From Magnetococcales bacterium (GTDB lineage: Bacteria > Pseudomonadota > Magnetococcia > Magnetococcales > JADGCL01): a DNA stretch of 55,995 bases. Below the pieces are notes generated by a model. The model was not told where the DNA came from, made no database searches, and saw nothing but the letters and a program-made list of their open reading frames with translations. Position 1 is the stretch's first letter, and every line of letters starts with the position of its first letter. Below are positions 15,366-35,489 of this stretch, piece by piece. The stretch lies in the NCBI GenBank assembly GCA_015229005.1, contig JADGCL010000011.1:1-55995 (forward strand). The letters run 5' to 3'. The translations under genes were made by a program, and so were the position numbers.

Positions 15366-17738
15366 ATGCTTGGCAAAATGATTGAGGCAGTCAACATTCG
15401 GAGATCGATCAACCGGAAGATTATTTTGTTGACCGGAGTGCTGGTCACAGTATTTCTGACAATTTTGGGTGGAACGCTGATCTACCATCTGGAGAAGAGC
15501 CTGAGCGACCAGGATCGCCGGAACGTCGAGCGGATGACGGAGATGGTCGGCCAGGGCCTGCAAACCATCATGGTGGCGGGACAATCCGCGATTGCACGGG
15601 ATTATTTTCACAAGCTTGAAGGTGTGGGGGGACTGGAGAGTCTCCGGGTTTTCAGAACCGACGGTAGTGAGGCGTTTCACCCTGAAGGGGAGGGGAAACG
15701 GGTCGAATCCGAGTTGGATTCTTTTTTTCAGGAGGCCGTCCGGGAGGGGAGGGGGGTCTTTTTCACAGTCACCGGACCGGATGGGGAAGAGCGCACTGCG
15801 GTGTTCGAGCCGCTGAAAAACCAGGCATCCTGTTACCAATGTCACGGTTCGGACCATGCAGTGCGTGGGATCTTTCAACTGACCCTCTCCCGGACTGAGG
15901 TCGAGGCAGCCCTGAGTTCGGCTCGGGTGGTAACCCTGGCAACGGTCGGGGTAGCGATTCCCTTATTGATTCTTCTCATCCGGATGGTGTTGGTGCGGAT
16001 CATCGAACGGCCCGTGCGAGAACTCAGGGGGGCCATTGATCGTGTTGCTCGTGGCGACCTTACCTATACCATCCCGCTACCCCAGGGACCTCTGGACGAA
16101 TTGGGAATGATCACGGAGGACGTCAACCGGATGACCGTGCGGTTTGGGGAGACTATCCGCCAGGTATTTCTGCAGACTCACTCCATGGCGGCGTGCATCG
16201 GTGACCTTGTCGGGGTGCGCGACGGTCTGGCGGCGGATTCCATGCAGAGCTTCCGGCGTGCTCAGGAAACGGCCGGTGATCACGAACGGGTCGAAGGGCA
16301 GGTGACGGCCATTCGTGAGGCGGTCGGTCAGACGACGACCAAGGTGGGGACCATCTCCCAGGCCACCGAGGCGCTTTCGGCCAATATTGCCACCATTGCC
16401 TCCGGTGCCGAGCAGGCGAGTACCAACATCAACACGATGGCCTCGGCGGCGGAGGAGATCACGGTCAGTATCGCCGGGGTCAACGATAATTTACAGATGG
16501 TGGACCAGTCCGTCTCCACTGTGGCCGTGGCGGTGCGCGAGGTGACCGCTTCGCTGAATGATGTGCGGCAACGATGCCAGCATGCGAGTCAGGAGTCGCG
16601 TCAGGCCAATGCCAAGGCGCAGGGAACCCACGAGGTGATGGCGCGTCTGGGTCGGTCGACAAAGGAGATCGACCAGGTTTTGGGGGTGATCAACAACATT
16701 GCTTCCCAGACCAACATGTTGGCGTTGAACGCCTCCATCGAGGCGGCGGGAGCCGGCGAGGCGGGCAAGGGGTTTGCGGTCGTGGCCAATGAGGTCAAGG
16801 AGTTGGCGCGGCAGACGGCGGATGCCGTGCGGATGATTTCCGAGAAGATCCAGGAGATCCAGGAGAACACCCGGGAGGTGACGGAAGCCAACAGTGAAAT
16901 CACGGACAGTATCCGTCGTATCGACGAGTCGAACGAGGAGATCACCCAGGCGGTTGATGAGCAGGCGGGGAGCATCGCCGAGATTGCCCAGTCAATGGGT
17001 GAGGTCGCCCAGGCGGCGGGGGAGGTCACGCGCAATTCCCACGAGCTGAATCTGGCGGCCCAGGACATTGCACGTTCGGCGCTGGAGGCGGCCAATGGCG
17101 CCATGGATGTGGCCCGCTCGGCCTCCGAGGCCTCGGCCTCGGCCAGTACGTTGGCGCAGCAGAGTGAGGAGATCCATCAGGCGGCGCTGCAGGTTTCCGA
17201 GGCGGCCGGAGTGGCGGCGGAGGCGACCACCAGTGCCAACGTGAAGGTGAAGGATATTTTCCGCATCGCCACCCTGGTCAATGGGGCGATTCACCACGTT
17301 TCTCTATTGATCGACTCCGTGGCGGTACCGGGGCGGAAGCTGGAACATTCCGTTCAGGATCTGGTCTTGACGGCGGAGCCCTTTCCGGTGGAAACCATCA
17401 AGGGGGCGCACCTGAAGTGGCTGGGCAAGTTGGAGAACGTGATTCGCGGTCGCGCTGATCTCAGGCCTGAGCAGGTTGCCAGCGGGCGGGAGTGTGATTT
17501 TGGGAAATGGTACTACACCGACGGAAGCGAGCGGTTCGGCCATTTGGAGATTTTTCAGCGCGTAGGGGAGGTTCACCTTTCCGTCCATGAAGTGGCGCGG
17601 GAGACGGTGAAGCTGGTCAGCGAGGGGGACATCCATGGGGCGGAACGGAAGATGGATGAGTTCAGCGGCATCAAGGATCGGCTCTTTGATTTGATGGACG
17701 AGCTTTACATGGAGGCGGCGAAACAGCAACAGGGCTGA
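15366..17738 (+). CDS. Chemoreceptor with c-type haem motif in sensor and C-terminal CZB zinc domain
   Basis: Start at 15366 is chosen over 15348 because aggcagga precedes it. The order is TM1 (residues 19-41), a periplasmic domain ending with a CxxCH haem-attachment motif (CYQCH, 156-160) in the DUF3365/Tll0287-like style, TM2 (188-210), HAMP, and a long methyl-accepting helix with tip [21 protein letters not shown]. The final 130 residues match a CZB zinc-binding domain ([35 protein letters not shown]). It probably senses redox, oxygen or NO at haem, with a zinc or oxidant input in the cytoplasm. It is last in the che cluster. Confidence 0.93.
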
Positions 17739-22904: not shown

Positions 22905-23765
22905 ATGATCGTGATGCGCATTGCTTATATAGTCATATCGGCAATATGTTTGATATTGTTTATTATTGTATTGTTTGTGCCTTCATCAGGGCAGTGGAAT
23001 AGCCGATTTCGTGTCTGTGAAGGGATGAAGGGGGAAGTCGTTCGCCTGATGCAAATAAGTGATCTTCATATCGGGAAACATCAGGATATTCATTCTTTGA
23101 TCGTTGATGATGTCAACCGTTTGCGGCCGGATTTTATTTTGTTCACAGGTGATTTGATCGATGACCAGGATAATGTCGTGTATTTGGAATCTTTTCTTGA
23201 GGCTTTCCCATCAACGGTAACCATGTACGCTGTTCCGGGCAATTGGGAGCATTGGGCGAACATAGATTTCAAGCTGATGGATGGTATGTTTCGCAGGTGG
23301 CATGGTCGGTGGCTTGTGAATGATTCGGTATTGATCACCGTGCGCGGCTCGATGTTTCTTTTGGTTGGTCTGGACGATTTCACCGGTGGCAGGCCCAATC
23401 TTCCTTTGGCTCTTTCCCATGCGCCGCGGTCGTGGGATGGCCGTAATCTCCTTGTTCTGGCACATTCCCCTGGCGAGCGGGAGAGGTTGCTGGCAAATTC
23501 CCGGCAGCTTGCGACCCGGACTCTGTTGTCGGCCACCTGTTCCTGGATGCTTTCCGGGCATACCCATGGTGGCGGCGTGGTCGTCATGGGGGTACCCTTG
23601 ACGCAAACATCGGGCAGCGGGGGCTATCTCAAGGGGTGGTATCGAGAGGGGGGAGTGCCGATGTACGTCTCCCGTGGGATAGGCGATTCGGTTCTCCCTT
23701 TTCGCCTCGGTGCCCCGCCGGAACTGCCCTATTTTGAATGGGAACTGGGGGGAGGGGAGAGGTGA
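22905..23765 (+). CDS. Membrane-anchored calcineurin-like metallophosphoesterase
   Basis: An N-terminal transmembrane segment (about residues 5-26) precedes a phosphoesterase domain with metal ligands in ISDLH (Asp53, His55), TGDL (Asp83), GNWEH (Asn113), LAHSP (His187) and GHTHGG (His219, His221). The pattern resembles YaeI-type phosphodiesterases acting on lipid-linked or nucleotide substrates. The normal GN(H/D)E is present as GNWEH. The N-terminal third is AT-richer than its neighbours. The start at 22905 is not fixed by a strong binding site; ATG 22914 is possible. Confidence 0.9.
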   Translation: MIVMRIAYIVISAICLILFIIVLFVPSSGQWNSRFRVCEGMKGEVVRLMQISDLHIGKHQDIHSLIVDDVNRLRPDFILFTGDLIDDQDNVVYLESFLEAFPSTVTMYAVPGNWEHWANIDFKLMDGMFRRWHGRWLVNDSVLITVRGSMFLLVGLDDFTGGRPNLPLALSHAPRSWDGRNLLVLAHSPGERERLLANSRQLATRTLLSATCSWMLSGHTHGGGVVVMGVPLTQTSGSGGYLKGWYREGGVPMYVSRGIGDSVLPFRLGAPPELPYFEWELGGGER

Positions 23766-23907: not shown

Positions 23908-26238
23908 ATGAGGGATTGGGTTATGTGCGTTCTTTGCGACTGGTCGTGGTTTCCGGAGAGGGATCATCTTCCTTCCGGTGATACTGATCGCTTGGGGAGT
24001 CACCACTTGTTTCGGTACCTTGCGTGGGGGCTCGGGCTGTTATTTTTCTGGGTTGCCCTTCTGTCCCCAGTCCTGGGTCAGGCGCAGGAAAACTACGCTT
24101 TGTTGGTTGGGGTATCGAATTATCGTAACCTGGATGCGGCCTACACACTCAACGGACCTGTCAACGATATCCCCTTGATCCGTGATTTGCTCTTGCAGCG
24201 CGGTTTTGCCAGGGAGAGGATGACCCTTCTTGCCGATGGGGTTGAGGGTGCCGACGCTCTTCCCACCCGTCAGGCCATCCTGGATGCGTTGGAACGGCTG
24301 GCCCGTACCGTCGGACGCGGTGATTATGTTTATCTCCATTTCGGAGGACATGGCTCGCAGTCGCCGGTCTCCGCAGCTTCTGCCGCTCAGGAGGCTGACG
24401 GTCGGGACGAGATATTTCTCCCCATCGACGTGGGGTCGTGGGACGACGAGGTCGGTGAGGTGGAGGGGTCTCTGCGCGATGATGAGGTGGCTGATCGCCT
24501 GACGGCCATCCGCAATCGGGGCGCCTTTGTTTGGGCAGTCTTCGATGCCTGCCACTCCGGGACCATGACCCGGGGAAGTCCGGTGGAGGAGAAGGATCGG
24601 CGACTGGATCCCCTCGTATTGGGTGTTCCCGAGGGTGCCTTCGCCAAGTCTCGCGGTGGTCGGGGCGGGGAGGAGGATCCAGGGGTGTCACCGCTCCAGG
24701 AGGGGGAGTCCCTGCCTTTGGCTGCCGATGCGGGAGGGGTGGTCACCTTCTTTGCGGCACAAAGCACCGAGACCACGCCCGACCGCCGGCTCCCTGACGG
24801 TGACCCGGAGCGGCGTCCCCATGGTCTCTTCTCCTTTACCCTGGCGAAGGTACTCAATGGCAATCCTGGAATGACCTATCGCCTGGTGGCCCAGCGGATC
24901 CTCCACGAATATGCGGCCAATCGGGAAAGCGCCACTCCCCTCTTTGGGGGAGGCAAGTATCTGGATGCCCCGGTTTTCGGAAGTCGGCCCGAGGCGCGGA
25001 AACCCGAGTGGCGGGTCGTGCGCCAGGGGGAGGGCTTGACCCTCAAGGCCGGAAGCATGCACCAGATTGGCGAAGGCAGCCTGATCGCTCTCTTCCCCAA
25101 GCCGGGGGCTGCGGAGAAGGAGCTGTTGGGCCATGCCCGGGTGGCTTCGGTACGCATGAGCGAGAGTGAACTGGTTCCGGTTGCCCGGGGGGATGGGTCG
25201 GTATTGGACCCCGGCCAATTGACGGCAACCCTGCTCCACGGGCGTTTGCTGGAGCGGAGCCTCTCTCTGGGGCTGAGGGTCTCTCCACCACAGTCGCCGG
25301 GAGTCGAGGGCAAGAAAGCCGACCATCTCCTGGACGAGGTTGTGGCGGGATTGCTCCGTGATCCCCCCACTGCCCTGCGGTTGCAGCGGGTTTCTCCGGA
25401 GGAGGGACCTGATCTTCGTTTGCTGATTCGTGAAGGTCGTCTTTGGTTTCTGCCTCCCAATGCCGAATTGGTCACCGGCGGGGCGGGGCGTACCCCGTCG
25501 ATACTGGGGCAGGGGTCGACGGTGGAACTGAGGGAGAAGGTGGTTGCTTCGTTGACCCGCATCGCCAAGGTGACCAACCTGTTGCGACTCGGGGAACATA
25601 TGGTCGGTCAGGAAGAATATCGGCAGCGGCTTCGGGTGCGTGGGAGGGTCACTCCGGTGCAGAGGGAGGGGTTGGGGCAGGCTGCTCTGGCTGCACTGCA
25701 ACAGGGGCGCTGCCCGGGGTTGCCGAGGGGCGAGCCGTTCGAGATCGATCCCCTGAGGATTCCCAGGCTGGGTGGATGCGATCGGGTGGACCTCGTGGTG
25801 GAGAATGTCACCGAGGCGCCGGTGGATCTGACCATTCTCTTTGTCGACGCGGAGTTCGGCATTGCTCCACTCTTTCCGGACAATTCCCAGGGCGATCTTG
25901 GTCGCATAGAGGCCAAGGGACAGAAAAAGATTCCCGGTTTTGAACTCCACACCACTGGTGAGGGTGGCGATCACTCCGGTGGCCGGGAGGGGCTTCTGTT
26001 TCTGGCGGTGGAGGCGGAGCCCGGCATGGCGGCTGCGGACTTTACCTTTTTGGCTCAGGAGAGTTTGCCCAAGGAGCGGGGTGGATCGGCCAGGGATGGC
26101 AACGAGCTGACGTCCCTTCTGTCGACGATCGGTTTTGTTTCCCCGGGGGGGGCGGAGAGGTTTCGCAGCCGCCTGCCGGCGCCGGTGGTTGACAGGACGG
26201 ACATGCAGATCCTGCGGTGGGACACGGTGATTCGATGA
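23908..26238 (+). CDS. Membrane-anchored caspase-like protease (peptidase C14)
   Basis: The 776-residue protein has a hydrophobic N-terminal segment (about 36-57) acting as signal or anchor, then a caspase p20-like domain from ENYALLVGVSNYRN. The catalytic dyad is His148 (HFGGHGSQ) and Cys215 (FDACHSG). HGLFSFTLAKVL marks the end of the caspase fold. The remaining ~400 residues are mostly beta and include a segment (VDLVVENVTEAPVDLTILFVD) similar to the DUF4384-like modules attached to bacterial caspases. It is first of three same-strand genes, with the RCK-RyR gene 26 bases downstream. Location is probably the periplasm or membrane face. Confidence 0.9.
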   Translation: MRDWVMCVLCDWSWFPERDHLPSGDTDRLGSHHLFRYLAWGLGLLFFWVALLSPVLGQAQENYALLVGVSNYRNLDAAYTLNGPVNDIPLIRDLLLQRGFARERMTLLADGVEGADALPTRQAILDALERLARTVGRGDYVYLHFGGHGSQSPVSAASAAQEADGRDEIFLPIDVGSWDDEVGEVEGSLRDDEVADRLTAIRNRGAFVWAVFDACHSGTMTRGSPVEEKDRRLDPLVLGVPEGAFAKSRGGRGGEEDPGVSPLQEGESLPLAADAGGVVTFFAAQSTETTPDRRLPDGDPERRPHGLFSFTLAKVLNGNPGMTYRLVAQRILHEYAANRESATPLFGGGKYLDAPVFGSRPEARKPEWRVVRQGEGLTLKAGSMHQIGEGSLIALFPKPGAAEKELLGHARVASVRMSESELVPVARGDGSVLDPGQLTATLLHGRLLERSLSLGLRVSPPQSPGVEGKKADHLLDEVVAGLLRDPPTALRLQRVSPEEGPDLRLLIREGRLWFLPPNAELVTGGAGRTPSILGQGSTVELREKVVASLTRIAKVTNLLRLGEHMVGQEEYRQRLRVRGRVTPVQREGLGQAALAALQQGRCPGLPRGEPFEIDPLRIPRLGGCDRVDLVVENVTEAPVDLTILFVDAEFGIAPLFPDNSQGDLGRIEAKGQKKIPGFELHTTGEGGDHSGGREGLLFLAVEAEPGMAAADFTFLAQESLPKERGGSARDGNELTSLLSTIGFVSPGGAERFRSRLPAPVVDRTDMQILRWDTVIR

Positions 26239-26264
26239 AGCCGAAGTTCCCGGGATAACCTGCG

Positions 26265-28469
26265 ATGTCTTTTTTCCTTCGGTTCGCCATCCTCTTTCTG
26301 GGGGGGGTGACCCTGGCCTTCGTGGCGGCTGTGGCGGGGTGGGTCAGTTATCTTCCGGAGCCGCCCTGGGGCGACGAGTACGCTTTTCGCGTCGATGTCA
26401 TGAGCCGGGCCTTGGCCGGTCTCTTTCAGCCTTATCTTTCGCCGCCCCCGGAAGATGCCCCCCGGGTTCTTGGGCTCGTTCCCCATACCCTCCCTCTGCT
26501 GGTCCTCATCCTTGCCGGGTGGGAGCTTCGCATTCGGCTGCGGAACCCCTGGCGGCTCTTTCGTATCCGCCGGCGGGGGGGGCATACCGTTCTCTGGGGT
26601 GATGGGTCCCTGGCAGGTCATCTCCTGGATGACCGTCTTCGTTCCGGGGAACCCCTTCTGCTTGCGGTGACCGATCCTGCTTCGCCTCTGCCGCGGCGGG
26701 CCCTGGGCGGCGGCGCCGGGATCCTGTTTCAAGACTTGAGGCAGGAGAAGGGGTTGGTCGCCTGCGGTCTGGCCACGGCCCGGCAGTTGATCGTCGTTGC
26801 CGCTGACGAGAGTGCCAACGTCGAGGTCGTGGCCCTGGCGAGCGGCGCCGCCTTGCGGCATCGGGCTCCGGGGGCGGGGCCGTTGCGGATTGTCGTCCAC
26901 CTGGCATCGCGTGAGTTACGGCAGCGGCTGGAGTCCCATGTGGACCGATTCAGCCACCGGGAGCGCTTGCAACTCATCTTTCTTTCGCTGCCGGCCCTGA
27001 TTGCCCGCAAGCTCTTTCTGGATCATCCCTGGGATCGTTTTCGTCATGGATACCGATCGGACTCCCGTCATCTGGTCATCGTCGGTCTGGGGGAGGTGGG
27101 GTGGGAAATCCTGTTGCAGGCCCTGCGACTGTGCCATCACGCCGATGGCGCGAGGATGCGGATGACCATGATCGATCGCCGGGCCGGTCGTCTGCGCGAA
27201 GAATTTCGGAGTCGTCACCCGCAGGCGGAATCGATCGCCGATCTCGATTTCCACTCCCTGGATACCGGACACGAGCCTGCCCTGCGCGCCTTCCTGGAGG
27301 GGGCCTGGAAGAGAGGTGAGGGGGCGCCAACTCTATTTATCGTAACCTTGTCCGAGGCCGCCGCCAGTCTGGCGGCGGCCTCGGCGGTGGAAAGAATTCT
27401 CCGCCAGATGTTGGTTCCGGTTCCTCCCATCCTGCTGCGCTGCGAGCGGGAAGCCGCGCTCGCGGCTTTTCTCGAGGCCGACCCGGAGGGGTTGGCGGCC
27501 GGGGGCATGATGCGGAGTTTCGGGAATGTCGCAGAGATCTGTGCCGATGGTTTTTCCCTGGGAGAGCGGCTGGATGCCCTGGCCCGTTTCATCCACGAGC
27601 GTTACCTGGAGGAGTGTCTGGCCCGAGGCGAGGCGCCAGGGTCCCGGTCAACCCTTGTCCCCTGGTCGGTTCTTGGGGAAGCGGCCAGGGAGGACAACCG
27701 GGTTCAGGCCGATCACAACCTGTTGAAGATCCGGGAGGCCGGATGCCGCACCCGGTCGCTGACGGGTGGGGAAGCCCCCTTCGTATTCTTCCCTTCCATG
27801 ATCGAGAGCCTGGCCAGGGCCGAGCATGTTCGTTGGTGTGCTTCGCGCTGGATCGCTGGTTGGAGTTGGGGGAGCGTGCGGGATGATCTTCTGCGGCGCC
27901 ATCCCGATCTGAAGCCTTACGAGGAGTTGAGTGAGGCGCAAAGGGAGTTGGATCGTGGCACGGTACGTGGTTTGCCGGCGCAATTGGCCTCGCATGGCCT
28001 GGTCCTGGTTCGCGATCTGCGGCTTGCGGTCGTCGGTTCGGGGGGCAAAGCGGGAGAAGGGGGTGGCCCTGTGGGAGAAGGGAGTGGCCTTGCGGGAGAG
28101 GGGGGTGGCCCTGCGGGAGATGAATTGGGCGAAACGCTGGGGCGTTTCCGAGAGGGGCTCTCCCGATCCTTCCCCGACCGGCACTGGGTGGTTGTCACCC
28201 CTCTTGCCACGCCGGGGCAGCGACTGGCCTGCCGGGTCGCCCTGGATCTGGGGGCGACGCTCGAGGTGGTATTGACAGAGCCGGTGGTCGTCTCTTTGCG
28301 CGGGCTGGCCGCCGGGGTGGAGCGGCAGGGCTTTCTGGAGTTGGTGCAGCGGGCGGAGGTCCTGCATTTCCTGGGTGAAGGGGAAGTCGAGGCCTGGTTG
28401 CGGCAGAGGGGGGAACGGCTCTTCGATCTGGATACCCTGGTGGTGAGTGGAGGGATTGCGGATCATTGA
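26265..28469 (+). CDS. Membrane protein with two RCK/TrkA-N domains, a RyR domain and a SLOG-like domain
   Basis: TM helices are at about 7-29 and 72-88. Two Rossmann units follow: HTVLWGDGSLAGHLL (107-121) and HLVIVGLGEVGWEIL (269-283), as in RCK/TrkA-N gating rings. Residues ~465-575 match the RyR module (AREDNRVQADHNLLKIREAG, AEHVRWCASRW, GWSWGS, HPDLKPYEELSE, ELDR). The last ~150 residues look SLOG-like (LRLAVVGSGG ... VVTPLATPGQRLACRVALDLGA), with a glycine-rich insertion in the first loop. Such architectures are known from nucleotide-centred conflict systems. It likely senses a nucleotide or ion signal and gates the neighbouring caspases; that is inference. Confidence 0.82.
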   Translation: MSFFLRFAILFLGGVTLAFVAAVAGWVSYLPEPPWGDEYAFRVDVMSRALAGLFQPYLSPPPEDAPRVLGLVPHTLPLLVLILAGWELRIRLRNPWRLFRIRRRGGHTVLWGDGSLAGHLLDDRLRSGEPLLLAVTDPASPLPRRALGGGAGILFQDLRQEKGLVACGLATARQLIVVAADESANVEVVALASGAALRHRAPGAGPLRIVVHLASRELRQRLESHVDRFSHRERLQLIFLSLPALIARKLFLDHPWDRFRHGYRSDSRHLVIVGLGEVGWEILLQALRLCHHADGARMRMTMIDRRAGRLREEFRSRHPQAESIADLDFHSLDTGHEPALRAFLEGAWKRGEGAPTLFIVTLSEAAASLAAASAVERILRQMLVPVPPILLRCEREAALAAFLEADPEGLAAGGMMRSFGNVAEICADGFSLGERLDALARFIHERYLEECLARGEAPGSRSTLVPWSVLGEAAREDNRVQADHNLLKIREAGCRTRSLTGGEAPFVFFPSMIESLARAEHVRWCASRWIAGWSWGSVRDDLLRRHPDLKPYEELSEAQRELDRGTVRGLPAQLASHGLVLVRDLRLAVVGSGGKAGEGGGPVGEGSGLAGEGGGPAGDELGETLGRFREGLSRSFPDRHWVVVTPLATPGQRLACRVALDLGATLEVVLTEPVVVSLRGLAAGVERQGFLELVQRAEVLHFLGEGEVEAWLRQRGERLFDLDTLVVSGGIADH
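28050..28121 (+). repeat. Three 24-bp in-frame repeats inside the SLOG-like domain
   Basis: Units of gcgggagaagggggtggccc type occur three times and encode AGEGGGPV, GEGSGL and AGEGGGP. They sit between the predicted phosphate-loop VVGSGG and the next helix LGETLGRF. Confidence 0.75.
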
Positions 28470-28510
28470 AATACAGGCCGCTGTCGTTGAAAAACAGGCC
28501 GCTGTCTGCC
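28468..28510 (+). repeat. Two 21-bp direct repeats at the RCK-RyR gene stop
   Basis: The sequence ttgaaatacaggccgctgtc is followed directly by ttgaaaaacaggccgctgtc, differing at one position. The first unit overlaps the stop codon. It lies about 80 bases before the start of the next gene. Confidence 0.6.
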
Positions 28511-28585
28511 AGCGACGGAGGGCCGGGTTCGGCACTCTGGTCGGGGCCGCTGCCGCAGGGGGCGGGCGGGGTCGGAGGTGTGATC

Positions 28586-30547
28586 ATGGGCGATCGGGGG
28601 AGAGAGGTCGGCGAAAGGGGGCTGTTTGCCCGGGTCCGGCGGTGGGGTCGCTGGTGGTTGCTCCGGGTGATTGCGTTTTTTCCCGTGATGCTTCTGTTGC
28701 CGTTGACGGTGGGGGCCGCCACTTCCCTGGTTCGGGTGGAGCGAAATCCGGAGGAGCGGAATCTGGAGGAGCGAAACCTGGAGGTGCAAAATCTGAACGA
28801 TGGTTTTCGGGCCCTGATCATCGGGGTCAGTGATTATCTCTACTGGGACAAATTGCCGGGGGTCAAGGAGGATGGGCAGGCTGTATACCGGAGCCTGAAG
28901 GGGTTGCAGCGCCGGGGAGTGGGGGAGTCTGCCTCTGACGGCATCAGGTTGCTCTGGGATCCGGGCGGCAGGGAGCTGGTGGACTCCCTCGAGAGATTTG
29001 CCCGGGAGGAGGGGAGTGACGAGAGAAGCCGTCTTTTCATCTATTTTGCCGGCCACGGAGAAAGGATCGAGGTCCAGGGCCGGGATTTTGGTCGGGGGGA
29101 GGGGGAGGATTGCCCCATCCCTGAGCGGCTTCGCCAGGATGGGAAGCCGGGGGTGGAATCCGATCTTTCGGGGTTGGGCGATGCTGCTCGAACGGAGAGA
29201 ACCTTCGAGGGTTACCTGGTTCCCAGGGATGCCCCCCTGCCGGCGGTGGACCCGATGGGGTTTCGCCGAAGTGGCCTGTGCATGTCGAAGATCAAGGAGA
29301 TCTTCGAGAAGATCCGGGCCAGGCATGTCATATTTCTCCTCGACAGCTGTTTTTCGGGGAGCCTCTTTCGTTCGCTTTGGCGCGGTCAGCCGTTGGCGGC
29401 GAAGCCTGCCGTCGGGCAATTCCTGGCCTTTCCGGTGCGCCACTTCATCACCGCTGGCGCCGAAGATCAGCGCGTGCCGGATCAGAGCTATTTCCGTCGT
29501 TTTCTGCAGAGTGGTTTGGCGGGCGCCGGTGATCTCGACCGGGATGGTTACATCACCGGGACCGAGCTGGCCCTGTTTCTGCGGTCACGGGTGGCCGAGG
29601 CCTCCCGGGGGCGGCAGACGCCCCTTTACGCCAAGGCCAATGAGGGGGAGTTTCTCAAGGGGGAGTTCGTCTTTCTTTCCCCCGTCGGGAGTGCCGGGGA
29701 GAAGGTCGCTCTGGACCCGACCTTTCCCGTCGAGGCCGCCTCCCGCAGCCCGGAGGGGCCCCGCCAGCCCGGGAAGCCCTTCAACGATTGCCACCACGAT
29801 TTCTGTCGGGAGCTGATGGTGGTTCCACCGGGGCGTTTTCCCATGGGTTCTCCCAGGGGAGAAGCAGGGAGGGATCCTGACGCGGAAGGAGAGCCGGTTT
29901 GGCTTGAGATCGACCATGCCCTGGGGGTTGGGCGGCGGGAAGTGACCTTTGCCGAGTGGGACGAGTGTTTCCATGACGGGGGGTGTTCCCGGTGGCCGGC
30001 GGATGAAGGTTGGGGGCGGGGTGGGCAACCGGTGATCCAGGTAGCCTTGAAGGATGTCCGGGAATATCTGGATTGGCTCAACCTCAAGAGTGGTCGTAAC
30101 CCGGAGGATCTCTTCCGCTATCGGTTGCCCTCGGAGGCGGAGTGGGAATACCTGGCACGCAGTGGCACGGTCGGGGCGCGTCCATGGGGGGAAGATATCG
30201 GCGTCGAGCAGGCCAACTGTCGGGGGTGCGGCAATCCGGAAGGGGGGAGAAGGACGCTCCCCGGGGGGCAGTTCCCGGCCAATCCTTTCGGTCTTTTCGA
30301 CCTGTTGGGCAATGTCTGGGAGTGGGTTGACGGCTGTTATGGAAAGGAAGCGGGTGATTCCCCCCTACTGCGGACGACCTGCCGCCGGCAGGTCATCCGC
30401 GGCGGCTCCTTCGCAACCGCTCCCAAGGGGGTCCGTGCCGCAGCCCGGGGGGGCTATCCTCCGGAGAGGAAGGCGAACAACATCGGCTTCCGGGTGGTGC
30501 GCACCGTGCCTTTCACCGCCGCTGGGGTCGGTGGTCGGCGGGAATGA
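28586..30547 (+). CDS. Caspase-like protease fused to FGE-sulfatase (C-type-lectin-fold) domain
   Basis: The ATG at 28586 follows ggaggtgtgatc; the frame upstream is not supported. The 653-residue product has a membrane segment (about 25-45), a degenerate repeat RNPEERNLEERNLE, and a caspase domain with His157 (YFAGHGER) and Cys255 (LLDSCFSGS). An EF-hand-like loop DLDRDGYITGTEL (316-328) follows, then a C-terminal FGE-sulfatase domain (RLPSEAEWEYLARSG, LLGNVWEWVDGCY, IRGGSF, GFRVVR). In the family, FGE modules often serve as binding domains rather than enzymes. It is the third gene of the caspase/RyR set and converges on the TIR-STAND gene. Confidence 0.92.
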   Translation: MGDRGREVGERGLFARVRRWGRWWLLRVIAFFPVMLLLPLTVGAATSLVRVERNPEERNLEERNLEVQNLNDGFRALIIGVSDYLYWDKLPGVKEDGQAVYRSLKGLQRRGVGESASDGIRLLWDPGGRELVDSLERFAREEGSDERSRLFIYFAGHGERIEVQGRDFGRGEGEDCPIPERLRQDGKPGVESDLSGLGDAARTERTFEGYLVPRDAPLPAVDPMGFRRSGLCMSKIKEIFEKIRARHVIFLLDSCFSGSLFRSLWRGQPLAAKPAVGQFLAFPVRHFITAGAEDQRVPDQSYFRRFLQSGLAGAGDLDRDGYITGTELALFLRSRVAEASRGRQTPLYAKANEGEFLKGEFVFLSPVGSAGEKVALDPTFPVEAASRSPEGPRQPGKPFNDCHHDFCRELMVVPPGRFPMGSPRGEAGRDPDAEGEPVWLEIDHALGVGRREVTFAEWDECFHDGGCSRWPADEGWGRGGQPVIQVALKDVREYLDWLNLKSGRNPEDLFRYRLPSEAEWEYLARSGTVGARPWGEDIGVEQANCRGCGNPEGGRRTLPGGQFPANPFGLFDLLGNVWEWVDGCYGKEAGDSPLLRTTCRRQVIRGGSFATAPKGVRAAARGGYPPERKANNIGFRVVRTVPFTAAGVGGRRE

Positions 30548-30644
30548 TCCCCGGGGTCGCCTGTCCCGGGTGGCCGGCAGCCCGTCGATGAAAGGGCGAG
30601 GCCTTCCTCAACGAAGCCAAACGGTCTTGCAGGCAACGATTGGC

Positions 30645-33600
30645 TTACTTTCCCGTCTTCGGTGCAGGTTCCTTCTCGGCTGACCACAATCCCCACAGCG
30701 TCCCCCGGGCCCCCCAGATGCCATTTGCGATCGTCAGGCCGTCGTCGGGGACCGTGGCCTTGTACCAGACCGACCCGCCGAGACCGGTGAGGGAGGCGAC
30801 CCCAAGGGAGCTGAGGCGCACCAGCCGGGTTTCGGGGTCATATCTTCCCTCCACCTCCTCGGTACCGGCAGGACCTAGTTCCCGACCCAGTTCCGAGGCG
30901 GTCCTTGTCCAGGTGAAGTGACCTTTCAGCGTCTGGTCCGAACGGTGTTCCAGCTTGAGTTCAAAGGCCCAGCCGGCGACGTTCGGGTCCTTTCCCCGAC
31001 CGTGCCATTGTCCGGAAAGATCGATGGTCGGAGGCGAGGCAGCGGAGGGAAAGGCGAAGTGCTCGTGACTCGGGTTGTGTTCGCTCGAGCTGTCGGCGCT
31101 GCCTTGCACAAGGGGCTTGATCCGGAAGAGTCCCTGGCTCGGGGTATGGACCCAGCAGAAGGCGAGCCCGGGGTCGCAGCCGATAGAGCTGGCGGGGGTG
31201 GCAAACTGGATCGGCAGCCCGAGCCGGAATCCCCGTTCGGCATCCAGAAACCAGAGGCGACCGTCGGCCCCGGAAACCGCCAGGGCATTTCTTTCCGGCA
31301 AGGGGGTTGTCGTCAGGGGAGCGGTCTGAAGATGCGCCTTGAACCGTTCATCCGGCTCCAGGGTTGACGTCAGGCGCAGCAATTTTCCGGTCGCTTCTCC
31401 CGCGTAGATCTCATTCCCCCACCAGGCCAATTCGTAGATTTGTCCGGGCAGTTGCCTTTGTTGGCGCACTTTGCCGTCGGCCAGATGCCACAACTTGATC
31501 CGACCGTCCATGCCAGTCGAGGCAAGCTGGCGGCCATCGGCGGAGAAGCGCCCCAGGACCGGTCGATAGTCGACATTGTCATCCTCGGCCAGGCAATCGT
31601 TTTTTCCCAGGTGACGAGTCGACACGATGGGTTCGCTCCCGGTTACCGGCCAAACCTCCAGAGTCCCTTCGGAGAGGGCCAGGGCGAGATGTTCTCCGGT
31701 AGGGGAAAAACGGAGATCCAGGATCCTCTCGCCTGCGTATTTCCGGCTGCGTACACGTTTTTCCGGCGCGAGACTCCACAGCTCGTAGTCGCCCTCCGAG
31801 CCTCCGACCGCGAGCCACTCTCCCCGGGGCGAAATGGCCAGGGCGGAGATGAATCCGACCTCCGTGGTCAGTTGTCGCACGCGGTTCTCTTCCAGACCGA
31901 AGAGGAAAACCGCAGGGGTGGACCCGGAGACGGCCACATGGCTTGCGTCCGGTGTCGCCGCCATTCGCACCGGGCGGGGCAGGGGGGTACGGAGGTGACG
32001 TTCGCCATCGCCCGGATGGCCGGAAAAGCGGGTCAGTCCCTCATTTTCCGCAGCCAGGAGGAGGAGATTCCCGGTCGGCAGATATTGTGCCAGGGGTTGG
32101 GAGGGTACGTGGTCGATGCCGATGATCGGCAGGTGCCAGAAGCGATATCCCTTTTCCTGGACCAGTGCGTACAGGGTGCTGCCCAGAAAGCCGGCGTGGA
32201 GGATGGGTTCTCGCTCGGCCAGATCCATGGTCAGGGGCTCCCACGAGGGCAGGCCACTGATGCTGAAGCTCCCGTCTCCGAGCAGGGTGGCGACCATGTC
32301 GCCCCGGGGATCGGGAAAGAATGTGTTGACCCGGTTGGGAAAGCGGTGACCATTGACCAGTTCGATGGGTTCGCCGGCACGGTAGAGAAAGGCATTGCCT
32401 GTGCTGTCGGCGACCAGGAAGCGGTTTTCCCGGTCGAGGAAGCGACAGGTGGAGAGGGTGGAGGCGAGCGGCAGGGGTTGGATCCTGCCGGTGGCGAGAT
32501 CGACCAGGGAGGCCTCCTTCTCGGCGCCGACGACCGCCCAGGTTCCCCCAGGGTTGGAGCAGATGTGGGTGATGATCCGGTTGAATCGCTGGATCGTCTT
32601 TTTTCGGGCCTGAAGCAGGGGGGCGGCCTTCTTTCCCGAATTGACCTTCGAGCCATCCGGGGAACCCTTGGTGGCGACCGGGGAAGAGGGTTTGTCGGTT
32701 TTGGCGGATTTGTCGAGGGAGGGCTCGGTGGCAGGTGGCTTGCTGTCGAGGAGGACGAGTTCACCGTTGCCGAATCCCAGCAAGAGTCCCTCCCTGGCCG
32801 CATGGATGACCGAGAACTTGTCCGGAAAGGAAGCCTTGAAGAGGAGATCCCCGCTTCCGGGATCATAGGCCCAGGCCGTTTTTTCGTCGTTGCCGGTCAG
32901 GCCCAGGAGGTTTCCGTCCGGGCTCAGGGACCACTGCATGACGGGTTGCCCGGGAACGATTCGGATCAGTTTGTTTTCGGAGAACTTGCCCTTCCGGATC
33001 TCCAGGGTCCGGAGGTCATCCGAAAGTTCGATGAGGAGCTGCTGCGACTGGTCGAAGAGAAAATACTCACCCTTCAGCGGGGGGGTAACCCGGTTTTGCC
33101 GGGGATGCAACTCCCGGTCGACGACTGCATGTGTCCCCGGGTGGTAGAGGATATTGAGCTGTTCGCTGGTGGTGGCATCGACCGGAACCAGGGGCTTCTC
33201 GCCAGGTAGTTCGACGCTGACGGGTCTTGGGGTGGAGCGGCGCCAGCCCTGGATCAGGTTTTCGGCGAGGCGCCGGGAGGCGGTGCCGGGTTGGGCGAGT
33301 TCAACCGCCTGGGCGAAAAAGTCGAGTCCGCCGGTGAAATTGTCGTGTTCGGTTTCGCGGTTGCCGCGCTCGATGAGGCTGTCGACCAGGGAAGCGGTCG
33401 CCTCCCGGTTTTTTTCCTCGGCGAGCCGTTGCCCCGAGAATCCCATCCATCCCCCGATTCCGGCGATGATCGCCAGGAGGAGCATCGCTAGGGCGACCCG
33501 TTTGGCGATCCGTTCGCGTCGCCGGGCTTCGTCCTTCTCCTTGTCGCGACGCCTGTTTTCCTGATCGCGGCAGGCGGCGAGATACTCCCGGTTGGCGATG

Positions 33601-35489
33601 GTCAGAAAGGCGGAGAGATCGTTCCGGGCGAGGAGGCGTTCGGCATCTTCCAGGCGACCGGCGGAGTGGTCGAGCCAATCCGGATCGCGATCATTGGCGA
33701 GCCAGTCGCGGCTGCCGCGCTGTACCCCTTCGAGGAGGGTGAGGGCGGCGAAATCCTCCTGGAGCCAGCCCTGAAGGAGCCCCCACTGGCGCAGCAGGGC
33801 CTCGTGGGCCGGTTCGACGGTGATCTGACCGCTCTCGGGGTCCTTGTCGGTGGCCAGCAGACGTGCCTCGATCAGCAGGCGAATGAGGGAGCGGGATTCC
33901 GGGGGGATCTCCTCCAGGTTTGCCACCCTTCGGCGCGGGGCCTGGGTGATCGGGTCGATGCCTGCGAGCCAGGGGATCAGCCCCCTGCGCAGCAGACTCT
34001 CCCGGGCGCCCCGATCCCGGGGGATGGTCGGATCGCGGTCGGCGGGGAGAAGGGCCTGGGCGACGGCCTTGTCGATCACCCCGCCGAGGCCCCCCATGTG
34101 TTGGTACTCTTCCAGCTTGAGATCACCGTCTCCCCCGTACTGGGTGTAGAGGTGTTCCAGGGTGAAGGCGAGGAGGGGCAGGGCATCCTTGCCGCCGCCC
34201 CGCTCGATCTCGTGGAGCAGGGTTTCGGTCAGCTGGGGTTCGATCCTGAGCTTTCTGTCGGCATCGCTGAAGCGACGGGCCGGACCCTCGATGATGCTCT
34301 GATAGGCGCCCCTCGGGATTGGGGGGAGGCTGAAGGTTTGTTGGCTGATCCCCTCCAGGGGTTTGGCGCTTTGCAGGGAGTCGTAGGAGTCGGAGCGGAT
34401 GGTGAAGATGACCATCAGGTTGGGTTTCTCGGCGCGGACGAGCTGCCCGATCAACTCCAGGAAGCGGTTGGCCTCGGCGGCCCCGTCGGCCTGGAACAGC
34501 TCCTCCCCCTGGTCGACGGAGAGGACCAGGGCAGGGGGGCGGTCCGGCCCCTTTGTGAGGGGATCGGGGATGGTGGCCCGGTCGGCCAACTCTCCCAGCC
34601 AGGTGAGGAGGGCGGTGGTCTCACCCTGGAGATTTTCCCGGATTGCTGCCCGGTTGATGGGGATGCGCCGTTGTCTGAAGGTCCGTTCCAGGACGCTGAT
34701 CAGGCCGTGATTGGTCTCTTCGATCACCGCCTGGCCGGGGCGGATCACCGGCAGTGCCAGGAAGTGGCGGTCATCGCGTTGCAGGCGCGGGAGGATTCCG
34801 GCGCGAAGGAAGGAAGACTTGCCCGACCCGGAGGCGCCGAGGATGACCAGCAGGCGCGGGGCAGGGCCGTCCCGGAGCCCCCGCAGACGGGCCAGGAGGT
34901 CGATGATGGGGCCGTCGCGCCCGAAAAAGATGCCGGCATCCTCGGCCTCCAGGGGGCGCATGCCGCGGTAGGGGGGGCGTTCCGGGTCGTGTTCCGGAGG
35001 CCAGGGAAAGAAGCGGGGATCGAGTTCGGCCTTGTGAAGTCCTGCCCGGAGCTGCGTGAGTCCGGCCCGCGAAAACAGGACGTGCCGTTCCTGACCGCTG
35101 TCGGGGAGAATCACCCGAAAGAGACGATGATCCTGGCCGGTCCCGAGACGGACCACCTGCCAGGTCCCGGTCAGCTCGTCCGGCAGGGTGTCGAGCGGCA
35201 GATCCTCGATCAGAACGACGAAGGTTCGCTTGTTGAGTTTCTGGGCGAGACGGAATTCCCTGCGGCACCACTCCGAAGCCAGCCATTCCCTACTGACAAG
35301 AAAGAGCACGGCATCGCAGCGGTCGGCAGCCTCGTGCAGGGAGCGTTCCCAGCGCTCTCCGGCGGTGATGCCCCGGGCGGGGTCGAGGTCGAGAAAGAAG
35401 TCGTCCCAGCCTTCGGCGACGAGCCAGTCGCCGAGGGCAAGGGCCTCCGGGTTGTTGCTGCTGGAATGACTGAGAAAAATCCTGGCCAT
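30645..35489 (-). CDS. TIR - nSTAND ATPase - TM - WD40 giant protein (1614 aa)
   Basis: The TIR domain spans residues 1-~150 (MARIFLSHSSSNNPEALALG; WLASEWCRREF with likely catalytic Glu78). A STAND NTPase follows: FFGRD entry (188-192), Walker A GASGSGKSS (218-226), Walker B ALVLSVDQGEE (320-330) and the nSTAND1-type PAHEALLRQW (560-569). A membrane helix lies at about 664-684. After it are many beta repeats of WD40 type (LRFSPTGEHLALALSEGTLEVWPV, GRFSADGRQLASTGMDGRIKLWHLADG), and a final beta-rich domain (~1490-1605) unlike WD40. TIR domains in such proteins usually cleave NAD+ on activation. It is convergent with the caspase genes. Confidence 0.92.
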   Translation of the reverse strand: MARIFLSHSSSNNPEALALGDWLVAEGWDDFFLDLDPARGITAGERWERSLHEAADRCDAVLFLVSREWLASEWCRREFRLAQKLNKRTFVVLIEDLPLDTLPDELTGTWQVVRLGTGQDHRLFRVILPDSGQERHVLFSRAGLTQLRAGLHKAELDPRFFPWPPEHDPERPPYRGMRPLEAEDAGIFFGRDGPIIDLLARLRGLRDGPAPRLLVILGASGSGKSSFLRAGILPRLQRDDRHFLALPVIRPGQAVIEETNHGLISVLERTFRQRRIPINRAAIRENLQGETTALLTWLGELADRATIPDPLTKGPDRPPALVLSVDQGEELFQADGAAEANRFLELIGQLVRAEKPNLMVIFTIRSDSYDSLQSAKPLEGISQQTFSLPPIPRGAYQSIIEGPARRFSDADRKLRIEPQLTETLLHEIERGGGKDALPLLAFTLEHLYTQYGGDGDLKLEEYQHMGGLGGVIDKAVAQALLPADRDPTIPRDRGARESLLRRGLIPWLAGIDPITQAPRRRVANLEEIPPESRSLIRLLIEARLLATDKDPESGQITVEPAHEALLRQWGLLQGWLQEDFAALTLLEGVQRGSRDWLANDRDPDWLDHSAGRLEDAERLLARNDLSAFLTIANREYLAACRDQENRRRDKEKDEARRRERIAKRVALAMLLLAIIAGIGGWMGFSGQRLAEEKNREATASLVDSLIERGNRETEHDNFTGGLDFFAQAVELAQPGTASRRLAENLIQGWRRSTPRPVSVELPGEKPLVPVDATTSEQLNILYHPGTHAVVDRELHPRQNRVTPPLKGEYFLFDQSQQLLIELSDDLRTLEIRKGKFSENKLIRIVPGQPVMQWSLSPDGNLLGLTGNDEKTAWAYDPGSGDLLFKASFPDKFSVIHAAREGLLLGFGNGELVLLDSKPPATEPSLDKSAKTDKPSSPVATKGSPDGSKVNSGKKAAPLLQARKKTIQRFNRIITHICSNPGGTWAVVGAEKEASLVDLATGRIQPLPLASTLSTCRFLDRENRFLVADSTGNAFLYRAGEPIELVNGHRFPNRVNTFFPDPRGDMVATLLGDGSFSISGLPSWEPLTMDLAEREPILHAGFLGSTLYALVQEKGYRFWHLPIIGIDHVPSQPLAQYLPTGNLLLLAAENEGLTRFSGHPGDGERHLRTPLPRPVRMAATPDASHVAVSGSTPAVFLFGLEENRVRQLTTEVGFISALAISPRGEWLAVGGSEGDYELWSLAPEKRVRSRKYAGERILDLRFSPTGEHLALALSEGTLEVWPVTGSEPIVSTRHLGKNDCLAEDDNVDYRPVLGRFSADGRQLASTGMDGRIKLWHLADGKVRQQRQLPGQIYELAWWGNEIYAGEATGKLLRLTSTLEPDERFKAHLQTAPLTTTPLPERNALAVSGADGRLWFLDAERGFRLGLPIQFATPASSIGCDPGLAFCWVHTPSQGLFRIKPLVQGSADSSSEHNPSHEHFAFPSAASPPTIDLSGQWHGRGKDPNVAGWAFELKLEHRSDQTLKGHFTWTRTASELGRELGPAGTEEVEGRYDPETRLVRLSSLGVASLTGLGGSVWYKATVPDDGLTIANGIWGARGTLWGLWSAEKEPAPKTGK

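Follow-up and report, generated by a model that had tools for sequence, protein, structure and literature searches.

Gene content of the locus

The window, meaning the whole stretch of 55,995 nucleotides that was analysed, carries within 11.6 kb a group of four genes that encode two caspase-like proteins, a membrane protein and a TIR-STAND protein:

23908..26238, + strand: caspase-like protease 1 (PF00656, 67 bits; Paramagnetospirillum marisnigri orthologue; hydropathy)
26265..28469, + strand: RCK-RyR membrane protein, ordered TM1, pore-like helix, TM2, RCK1, RCK2, tandem RyR and a weak C-terminal alpha/beta region, perhaps SLOG-like (PF02026, PDB profile matches, AlphaFold2, Foldseek)
28586..30547 (ATG start), + strand: caspase-FGE protein (PF03781, 133 bits; PF00656, 35.5 bits)
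30645..35489, - strand: TIR-nSTAND1-TM-WD40 protein, 1614 aa (TIR_2, nSTAND1 and WD40 Pfam matches)

The ORFs of all four genes were found where a prior sequence-only reading had placed them, and they are real genes, rightly described except for a weak SLOG call. Its gaps of 26 and 116 bp between the first three genes and its convergent 1614-aa TIR-STAND-WD40 protein also agreed with the ORFs and Pfam matches. The second gap is counted to the ATG at 28586, and the caspase-FGE frame is open already from a TTG at 28466. This triad is read as one operon, and the TIR gene lies 97 bp from it. Profile searches recovered Peptidase_C14, RyR, FGE-sulfatase, nSTAND1, TIR_2 and WD40, while TrkA_N stayed under its cut-off. 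Across the whole assembly (3.28 Mb, 173 contigs, 79% complete), Peptidase_C14 occurs twice and TIR_2 and RyR once each, all inside these 11.6 kb. The flanking genes are ordinary and include chemotaxis genes, a fatty-acyl-AMP ligase, an EptA-type lipid A transferase and a GGDEF protein. It was noted that a calcineurin-like phosphoesterase (YaeI/LpxG-like) with a membrane anchor is encoded at 22905-23765 (+), 142 bp upstream of caspase 1; this gene is not conserved at the P. marisnigri locus.

The His/Cys dyads that had been called intact are present in both caspases and are kept in the Paramagnetospirillum orthologues. The caspase domain of the first protein, whose C-terminal region received no domain assignment, spans about 24094-24864, with catalytic H148 and C215, and that of the caspase-FGE protein about 28808-29596, with H197/C295 (numbering from the frame start at 28466) and an FGE/C-type-lectin fold at 29807-30502. 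Hydropathy gave each caspase a single N-terminal hydrophobic segment resembling an export signal or anchor, and both are probably exported and would act outside the inner membrane. Membrane segments had been proposed for all four proteins; the two helices of the RCK-RyR protein and the one segment of the TIR-STAND protein were upheld, and those of the caspases are read as an export signal or anchor.

The TIR-nSTAND1-WD40 protein comprises the following parts, all on the - strand:

35139-35480, - strand: TIR (TIR_2, 57.5 bits)
33678-34973, - strand: nSTAND1 (231 bits)
33441-33497, - strand: TM segment between STAND and WD40 (hydropathy)
about 31380-31982, - strand: WD40 (48 bits)

A catalytic-type Glu (WCRRE) and Walker A/B motifs are present. 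With one membrane segment between STAND and WD40, hydropathy suggests that the TIR and STAND parts would be cytoplasmic and the WD40 part periplasmic.

Architecture of the RCK-RyR membrane protein

We characterized the second gene product by profile comparison and structure prediction, from which these segments were delimited:

26268..26576, + strand: membrane part with TM1 (aa 2-28), short helix (38-53) and TM2 (67-104) (hydropathy, MthK/GsuK alignment, AlphaFold2)
26577..26984, + strand: RCK1 Rossmann fold, about aa 105-240 (family profile, N-terminal profile, AlphaFold2, Foldseek)
27060..27524, + strand: RCK2 Rossmann fold with GxGxxG kept, about aa 266-420 (family profile, AlphaFold2, Foldseek)
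27573..27764, + strand: RyR repeat 1, degenerate, about aa 437-500 (hhalign against repeat 2; Foldseek to RyR3 Repeat12)
27792..28034, + strand: RyR repeat 2 with the ligand quartet, about aa 510-590 (spacing as in RyDEP)
27999..28268, + strand: C-terminal alpha/beta region, tentatively SLOG-like (pairwise comparison, hhalign, low pLDDT)

The RyR domain scored 52 bits against PF02026 (gathering score 27.4). TrkA_N reached only 15 bits, under its cut-off; despite this, both RCK folds are backed by the family profile, AlphaFold2 and Foldseek. The family profile, built from 23 RCK-RyR homologues, matched in the PDB the RyR domains of ryanodine receptors (E=3e-31), TrkA (4e-18) and the MthK and GsuK channels, the last two along the membrane part and RCK1 (about 5e-12). 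The N-terminal profile alone aligned with MthK at E=1.5e-12, spanning TM1, pore helix, TM2 and RCK. The AlphaFold2 model (pLDDT 75, pTM 0.72) comprises a helix at 2-28, a short one at 38-53 and a long one at 67-104, followed by a pair of Rossmann folds and an RyR region made of helices. Its Foldseek matches were TrkA, KtrA, GsuK, CASTOR, DMI1, Slo1 and MthK, with a separate match to the whole Repeat12 domain of human RyR3 (185-190 aligned columns). This length covers two repeats, and repeat 1 (taken as aa 430-500) aligns with repeat 2 (taken as aa 505-592; hhalign probability 92.8%, E=3.9e-7), LARFIHERY... in the former paralleling LARAEHVRW... in the latter; the protein is therefore read as carrying a tandem, Repeat12-like RyR module. 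Thus the RCK folds and RyR domain described from sequence stood, and the SLOG-like domain had weak backing, as the C-terminal tail resembles the N-terminus of a SLOG-SLATT-type protein weakly (pairwise E=2e-4), aligns with SLOG at an hhalign probability of 4.7% and is modelled as an alpha/beta fold at low pLDDT.

Taken from its profile and model matches, the protein appears to be built like the MthK, GsuK and CASTOR channels, with which it shares the order TM1, pore-like helix, TM2, RCK, RCK and homology over the membrane and RCK parts. It differs from them in its extra RyR module, its immune gene context and its lack of the TVGYG potassium selectivity filter. Every aligned RCK-RyR homologue lacks this filter; the sequence thus gives no guide to ion selectivity, and the protein is perhaps no channel at all. 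As in the animal ryanodine receptor, its RyR repeats stand in tandem and make up a two-lobed module for nucleotide binding. The animal module belongs to a Ca2+ release channel of 5000 residues, and beyond the RyR module the two proteins showed no sequence kinship.

Phage RyR-domain proteins (RyDEP) bind the TIR products 2'cADPR and 3'cADPR, with one case of cleavage (2026 preprint, PMC13232231). In RyDEP, H75 and D117 contact the terminal ribose and are catalytic, W78 contacts adenine and H100 the phosphates, and these ligand residues are stated to be conserved across PF02026 (PMC13232231). The second repeat of the window protein holds H521, W524, H546 and D563 at +3/+25/+42, a spacing identical to that of the RyDEP quartet. 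Among 20 aligned homologues the first His is kept in all, Trp and Asp in 19 each and the second His in 18, and the majority of the invariant columns of the family are RyR motif positions; the phosphate-contacting His is lost in the mycobacterial versions. Because the quartet is conserved across PF02026, it argues for adenine-nucleotide binding and not for one ligand. In animal receptors, RyR domains are ATP/ADP binders, so the RCK-RyR ligand could also be an ordinary adenine nucleotide. We consider the tandem RyR, and not SLOG or RCK, the likely nucleotide-binding module, and these residues together with the model suggest that the protein may serve as an RyR receptor for a TIR-made messenger.

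Neighbours of RCK-RyR genes in other genomes

A genome scan with an alignment query located 25 RCK-RyR loci; a single-protein query found nothing. The triad recurs with unchanged gene order in P. marisnigri SP-1 (caspase, RCK-RyR, caspase-FGE), with identities of 36%, about 35% and 44%, respectively. There it is followed by trypsin-PDZ, CRP/TPR-S and TIR-nSTAND1 genes and preceded by SIR2-TIR and nSTAND1-TPR genes. That genome has three TIR domains, each of them near one of its two RCK-RyR genes, the second of which has a TIR-FGE partner. The co-occurrence of the RyR protein with caspase and TIR-STAND genes, proposed for the window, was thus encountered elsewhere in the neighbourhood comparison.

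TIR partners were found in several further arrangements. A TIR-nSTAND1-TPR gene lies 37 bp upstream of RCK-RyR on the same strand in G427 (L092), a TIR-WD40 gene and an FGE lipoprotein gene accompany it, convergently, in G498, and it stands with TIR-nSTAND1-WD40 in Roseobacter insulae and with TIR and patatin in G764. In G498, R. insulae and G764 the TIR near RCK-RyR is the sole one detected in the genome. In mycobacteria a TIR-TM-PknH_C gene is convergent to RCK-RyR. DUF4062, a demonstrated TIR-like NADase (PMC13174449), was encountered 16 bp downstream of RCK-RyR in G800 (L110 8168-13226) and 47 bp downstream in an Arcobacter locus (L004 10940-14663) where separate TrkA-N and RyR genes stand in place of a single RCK-RyR gene. 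Nine partner TIRs all keep the catalytic-type Glu, so that catalytic residues, as with the caspase His/Cys pairs, are conserved across homologues as had been anticipated. In other genomes, homologues occur with a TIR partner but without a caspase, so the effector could be the channel-like membrane part; several loci hold TIR and RCK-RyR with no other recognisable effector.

To assess this proximity, TIR_2 was counted genome-wide with the window excluded and close relatives merged. Of 22 lineages, 6 carry a TIR_2 domain no more than 10 kb from RCK-RyR, where chance would predict 0.26 (P about 2e-8; with a 15 kb limit, P 2e-7). This expectation uses rounded genome sizes and ignores contig ends, and the figure could be partly inflated by an island effect since defence genes cluster. 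The DUF4062 neighbours occur in two genomes beyond these six lineages. When mapped onto a tree of 24 RCK-RyR proteins, the TIR/DUF4062 label had to change 8 times, and supported branches force 6 or more of these changes; the association therefore does not descend from a single locus. The closely spaced same-strand pairs in G427, G800 and Arcobacter favour a functional link between TIR or DUF4062 and RCK-RyR. The RCK-RyR proteins of the window, P. marisnigri and a relative, G015, form one clade with 100/100 support.

Many RCK-RyR loci have no TIR nearby, among them those of Hyphomonadaceae, which showed no suggestive neighbours, the patatin loci and several relatives in the P. marisnigri family. 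On other branches the neighbours are patatin and SLOG-SLATT-type proteins. In Alphaproteobacteria we noted a recurring set of patatin, RCK-RyR and SLOG-SLATT/DUF4231-type genes (L039/L050, L040/L054, L107), which looks like a sister system whose effector is a phospholipase. It was also noted that the mycobacterial TIR-TM-PknH_C proteins (L048 11542-13104, also L047, L049 and L051) have a Toll-like-receptor-like topology with an extracellular sensor domain, and that the Arcobacter RyR locus is on a plasmid, adjoining integrase and restriction genes.

A possible TIR-messenger system and its alternatives

Our preferred reading is that the locus is a Thoeris-like, TIR-messenger conflict system with an unrecognised RyR receptor, in which a TIR messenger would act through RyR on membrane gating and the caspases. 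We give this reading roughly even chances. The STAND/WD40 part would detect an invader or envelope damage, upon which the activated TIR would convert NAD+ to an ADP-ribose-type messenger. The tandem RyR module would bind this messenger and the RCK ring would pass the binding on to the membrane part. As output the inner membrane would open and, as an addition in this lineage, both exported caspases would be activated, one of which has an FGE binding domain. The sequence-only reading had a nucleotide, possibly TIR-made, bind the SLOG/RCK protein and activate the caspases. The TIR-made nucleotide remains plausible; the binding module is likely RyR instead, and since the caspases look exported, their direct activation by a cytoplasmic receptor is not straightforward and a transmembrane step would be needed.

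A more specific version can be put forward only with some doubt. In it, RyR-gated bacterial membrane channels of RCK type would be opened by TIR-made cyclic ADP-ribose during infection, countered or mimicked by phage RyDEP and coupled in the window lineage to exported caspases, forming a counterpart of the link between cADPR and the ryanodine receptor. This link in animals is an old and disputed question, and the action of cyclic ADP-ribose on RyR domains would become testable in small bacterial proteins. If true, TIR immunity would gain a new receptor class and a channel-type effector, caspases would be linked to the TIR/cyclic ADP-ribose pathway, and the phage RyDEP proteins would counter or mimic a host RyR receptor class.

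Thoeris consists of a TIR protein, ThsB, and a ThsA effector that senses cyclic ADPR through a SLOG or macro domain, and membrane effectors are known in the macro-domain types. The present locus shares with it a TIR enzyme with a conserved Glu, a predicted ADPR-type messenger and a separate receptor/effector protein. It differs in that the receptor would be a tandem RyR on a double-RCK, two-helix membrane protein, the TIR is fused to nSTAND1-TM-WD40, and exported caspases are added. No ThsA-type protein (SIR2-SLOG or TM-macro) was found among the locus neighbours, its place being occupied by RCK-RyR, and the NCBIfam Thoeris model was far under cut-off. Working in a Thoeris-like way but without ThsA, the locus is not filed as Thoeris. 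Nor did it fit other catalogued systems: PADLOC gave only generic caspase and weak TIR matches or sub-cut-off models, and no NCBIfam system model reached its cut-off. Caspases, trypsin, FGE/FGS and nSTAND1 are shared with EACC1 and other caspase-effector conflict systems (Kaur et al., PMC7159879; PMC8195603), in which papers the terms RyR and TrkA do not occur. An EACC1-type assignment was rejected, the two caspases scoring 23.8 and 50.6 bits with caspase_w_EACC1 (cut-off 140 bits).

The four genes may instead represent two independent systems in one island, which we regard as unlikely. Here TIR-nSTAND1-WD40 would deplete NAD+ alone, and the caspase/RCK-RyR/caspase-FGE operon would serve separately in envelope stress or cell death, its RCK-RyR protein responding to NAD(H) or ATP. 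The TIR gene is indeed convergent and not co-transcribed with the triad, stand-alone TIR-STAND systems exist, and RCK domains classically bind NAD(H)/ADP/ATP. However, the pairing of TIR with RCK-RyR is far above chance, and TIR or DUF4062 recurs beside it in unrelated branches, sometimes in operons.

Another reading concerns the direction of the signal. The preprint demonstrated the phage side only, namely RyR proteins that degrade or sequester the TIR signal (PMC13232231), and an RyR domain that hydrolyses or soaks up the messenger in the same way would make RCK-RyR an off-switch that limits or ends signalling. The catalytic H75 and D117 of RyDEP have counterparts in H521 and D563, and a sponge would be in keeping with most phage homologues tested, which bind without cleaving (PMC13232231). 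For this same reason the quartet does not separate sensor from hydrolase, and residue conservation cannot tell the two apart. RyDEP proteins serve phages against Thoeris and, in the solved structure, are soluble dimers of RyR domains (PMC13232231). They share with the window protein the RyR fold and the H/W/H/D residues (PF02026), whereas in the window protein a tandem RyR, encoded by the host, is joined to a membrane RCK protein next to a TIR. A two-helix, double-RCK membrane body is needless for a sponge or hydrolase, and several loci with TIR and RCK-RyR would be left with no recognisable effector; we regard an off-switch as rather improbable. Least probable is a C-terminal SLOG-like sensor with a structural RyR, which the weak tail similarity and SLOG-SLATT-type neighbours in Methylobacterium, Hyphomicrobiales MAGs, a planctomycete and G793 would favour, but the tail is poorly conserved, of low confidence and missing in many homologues whose loci nonetheless include a TIR partner.

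Returning to the RyR-receptor reading, a literature search found no host-side RyR receptor and no host-side link of RyR or RCK proteins with TIR systems; the 2025 TIR survey of Yirmiya et al. and Burroughs 2015 were outside its reach, and an earlier description of the RCK-RyR/TIR pairing in that survey is possible. The RCK-RyR family, TIR-linked in several lineages, is a ready candidate for such a receptor.

Several further observations concern RyR domains and hypervariable sensors. Three viral contigs from IMG/VR (L070, L071, L072) encode 210-aa RyR proteins with the quartet at +3/+25/+42, which are candidate RyDEP-type anti-defence proteins. A betaproteobacterial gene (L058 7871-10456) fuses an adenylate/guanylate cyclase domain to RyR near an nSTAND1-TPR gene and a subtilase-like gene, and a genome of the same order as the window encodes an 840-aa protein (L006 13041-15563) with RelA/SpoT, TPR, a possibly SLOG-like region and RyR. 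The caspase-FGE protein was considered as a hypervariable DGR target and rejected, its FGE matching the template over at most 17 bases; a match of the template repeat at window position 17329 is short, lies inside a chemoreceptor gene and was set aside as chance. The DGR of this genome comprises a reverse transcriptase and a template of 131 bases, whose variable repeats are confined to two nSTAND1-FGE proteins of 1044 aa, each encoded on a contig of its own away from the window, G000:C93 (L042) and G000:C105 (L043); these proteins are putative hypervariable STAND sensors. In the G015 relative, the RCK-RyR gene (L005, G015:C202, a contig that ends within this gene) is immediately preceded by a complete DGR targeting an nSTAND1-FGE protein, and the 125-base repeat of this DGR has 19 differences, 17 of them at template adenines.
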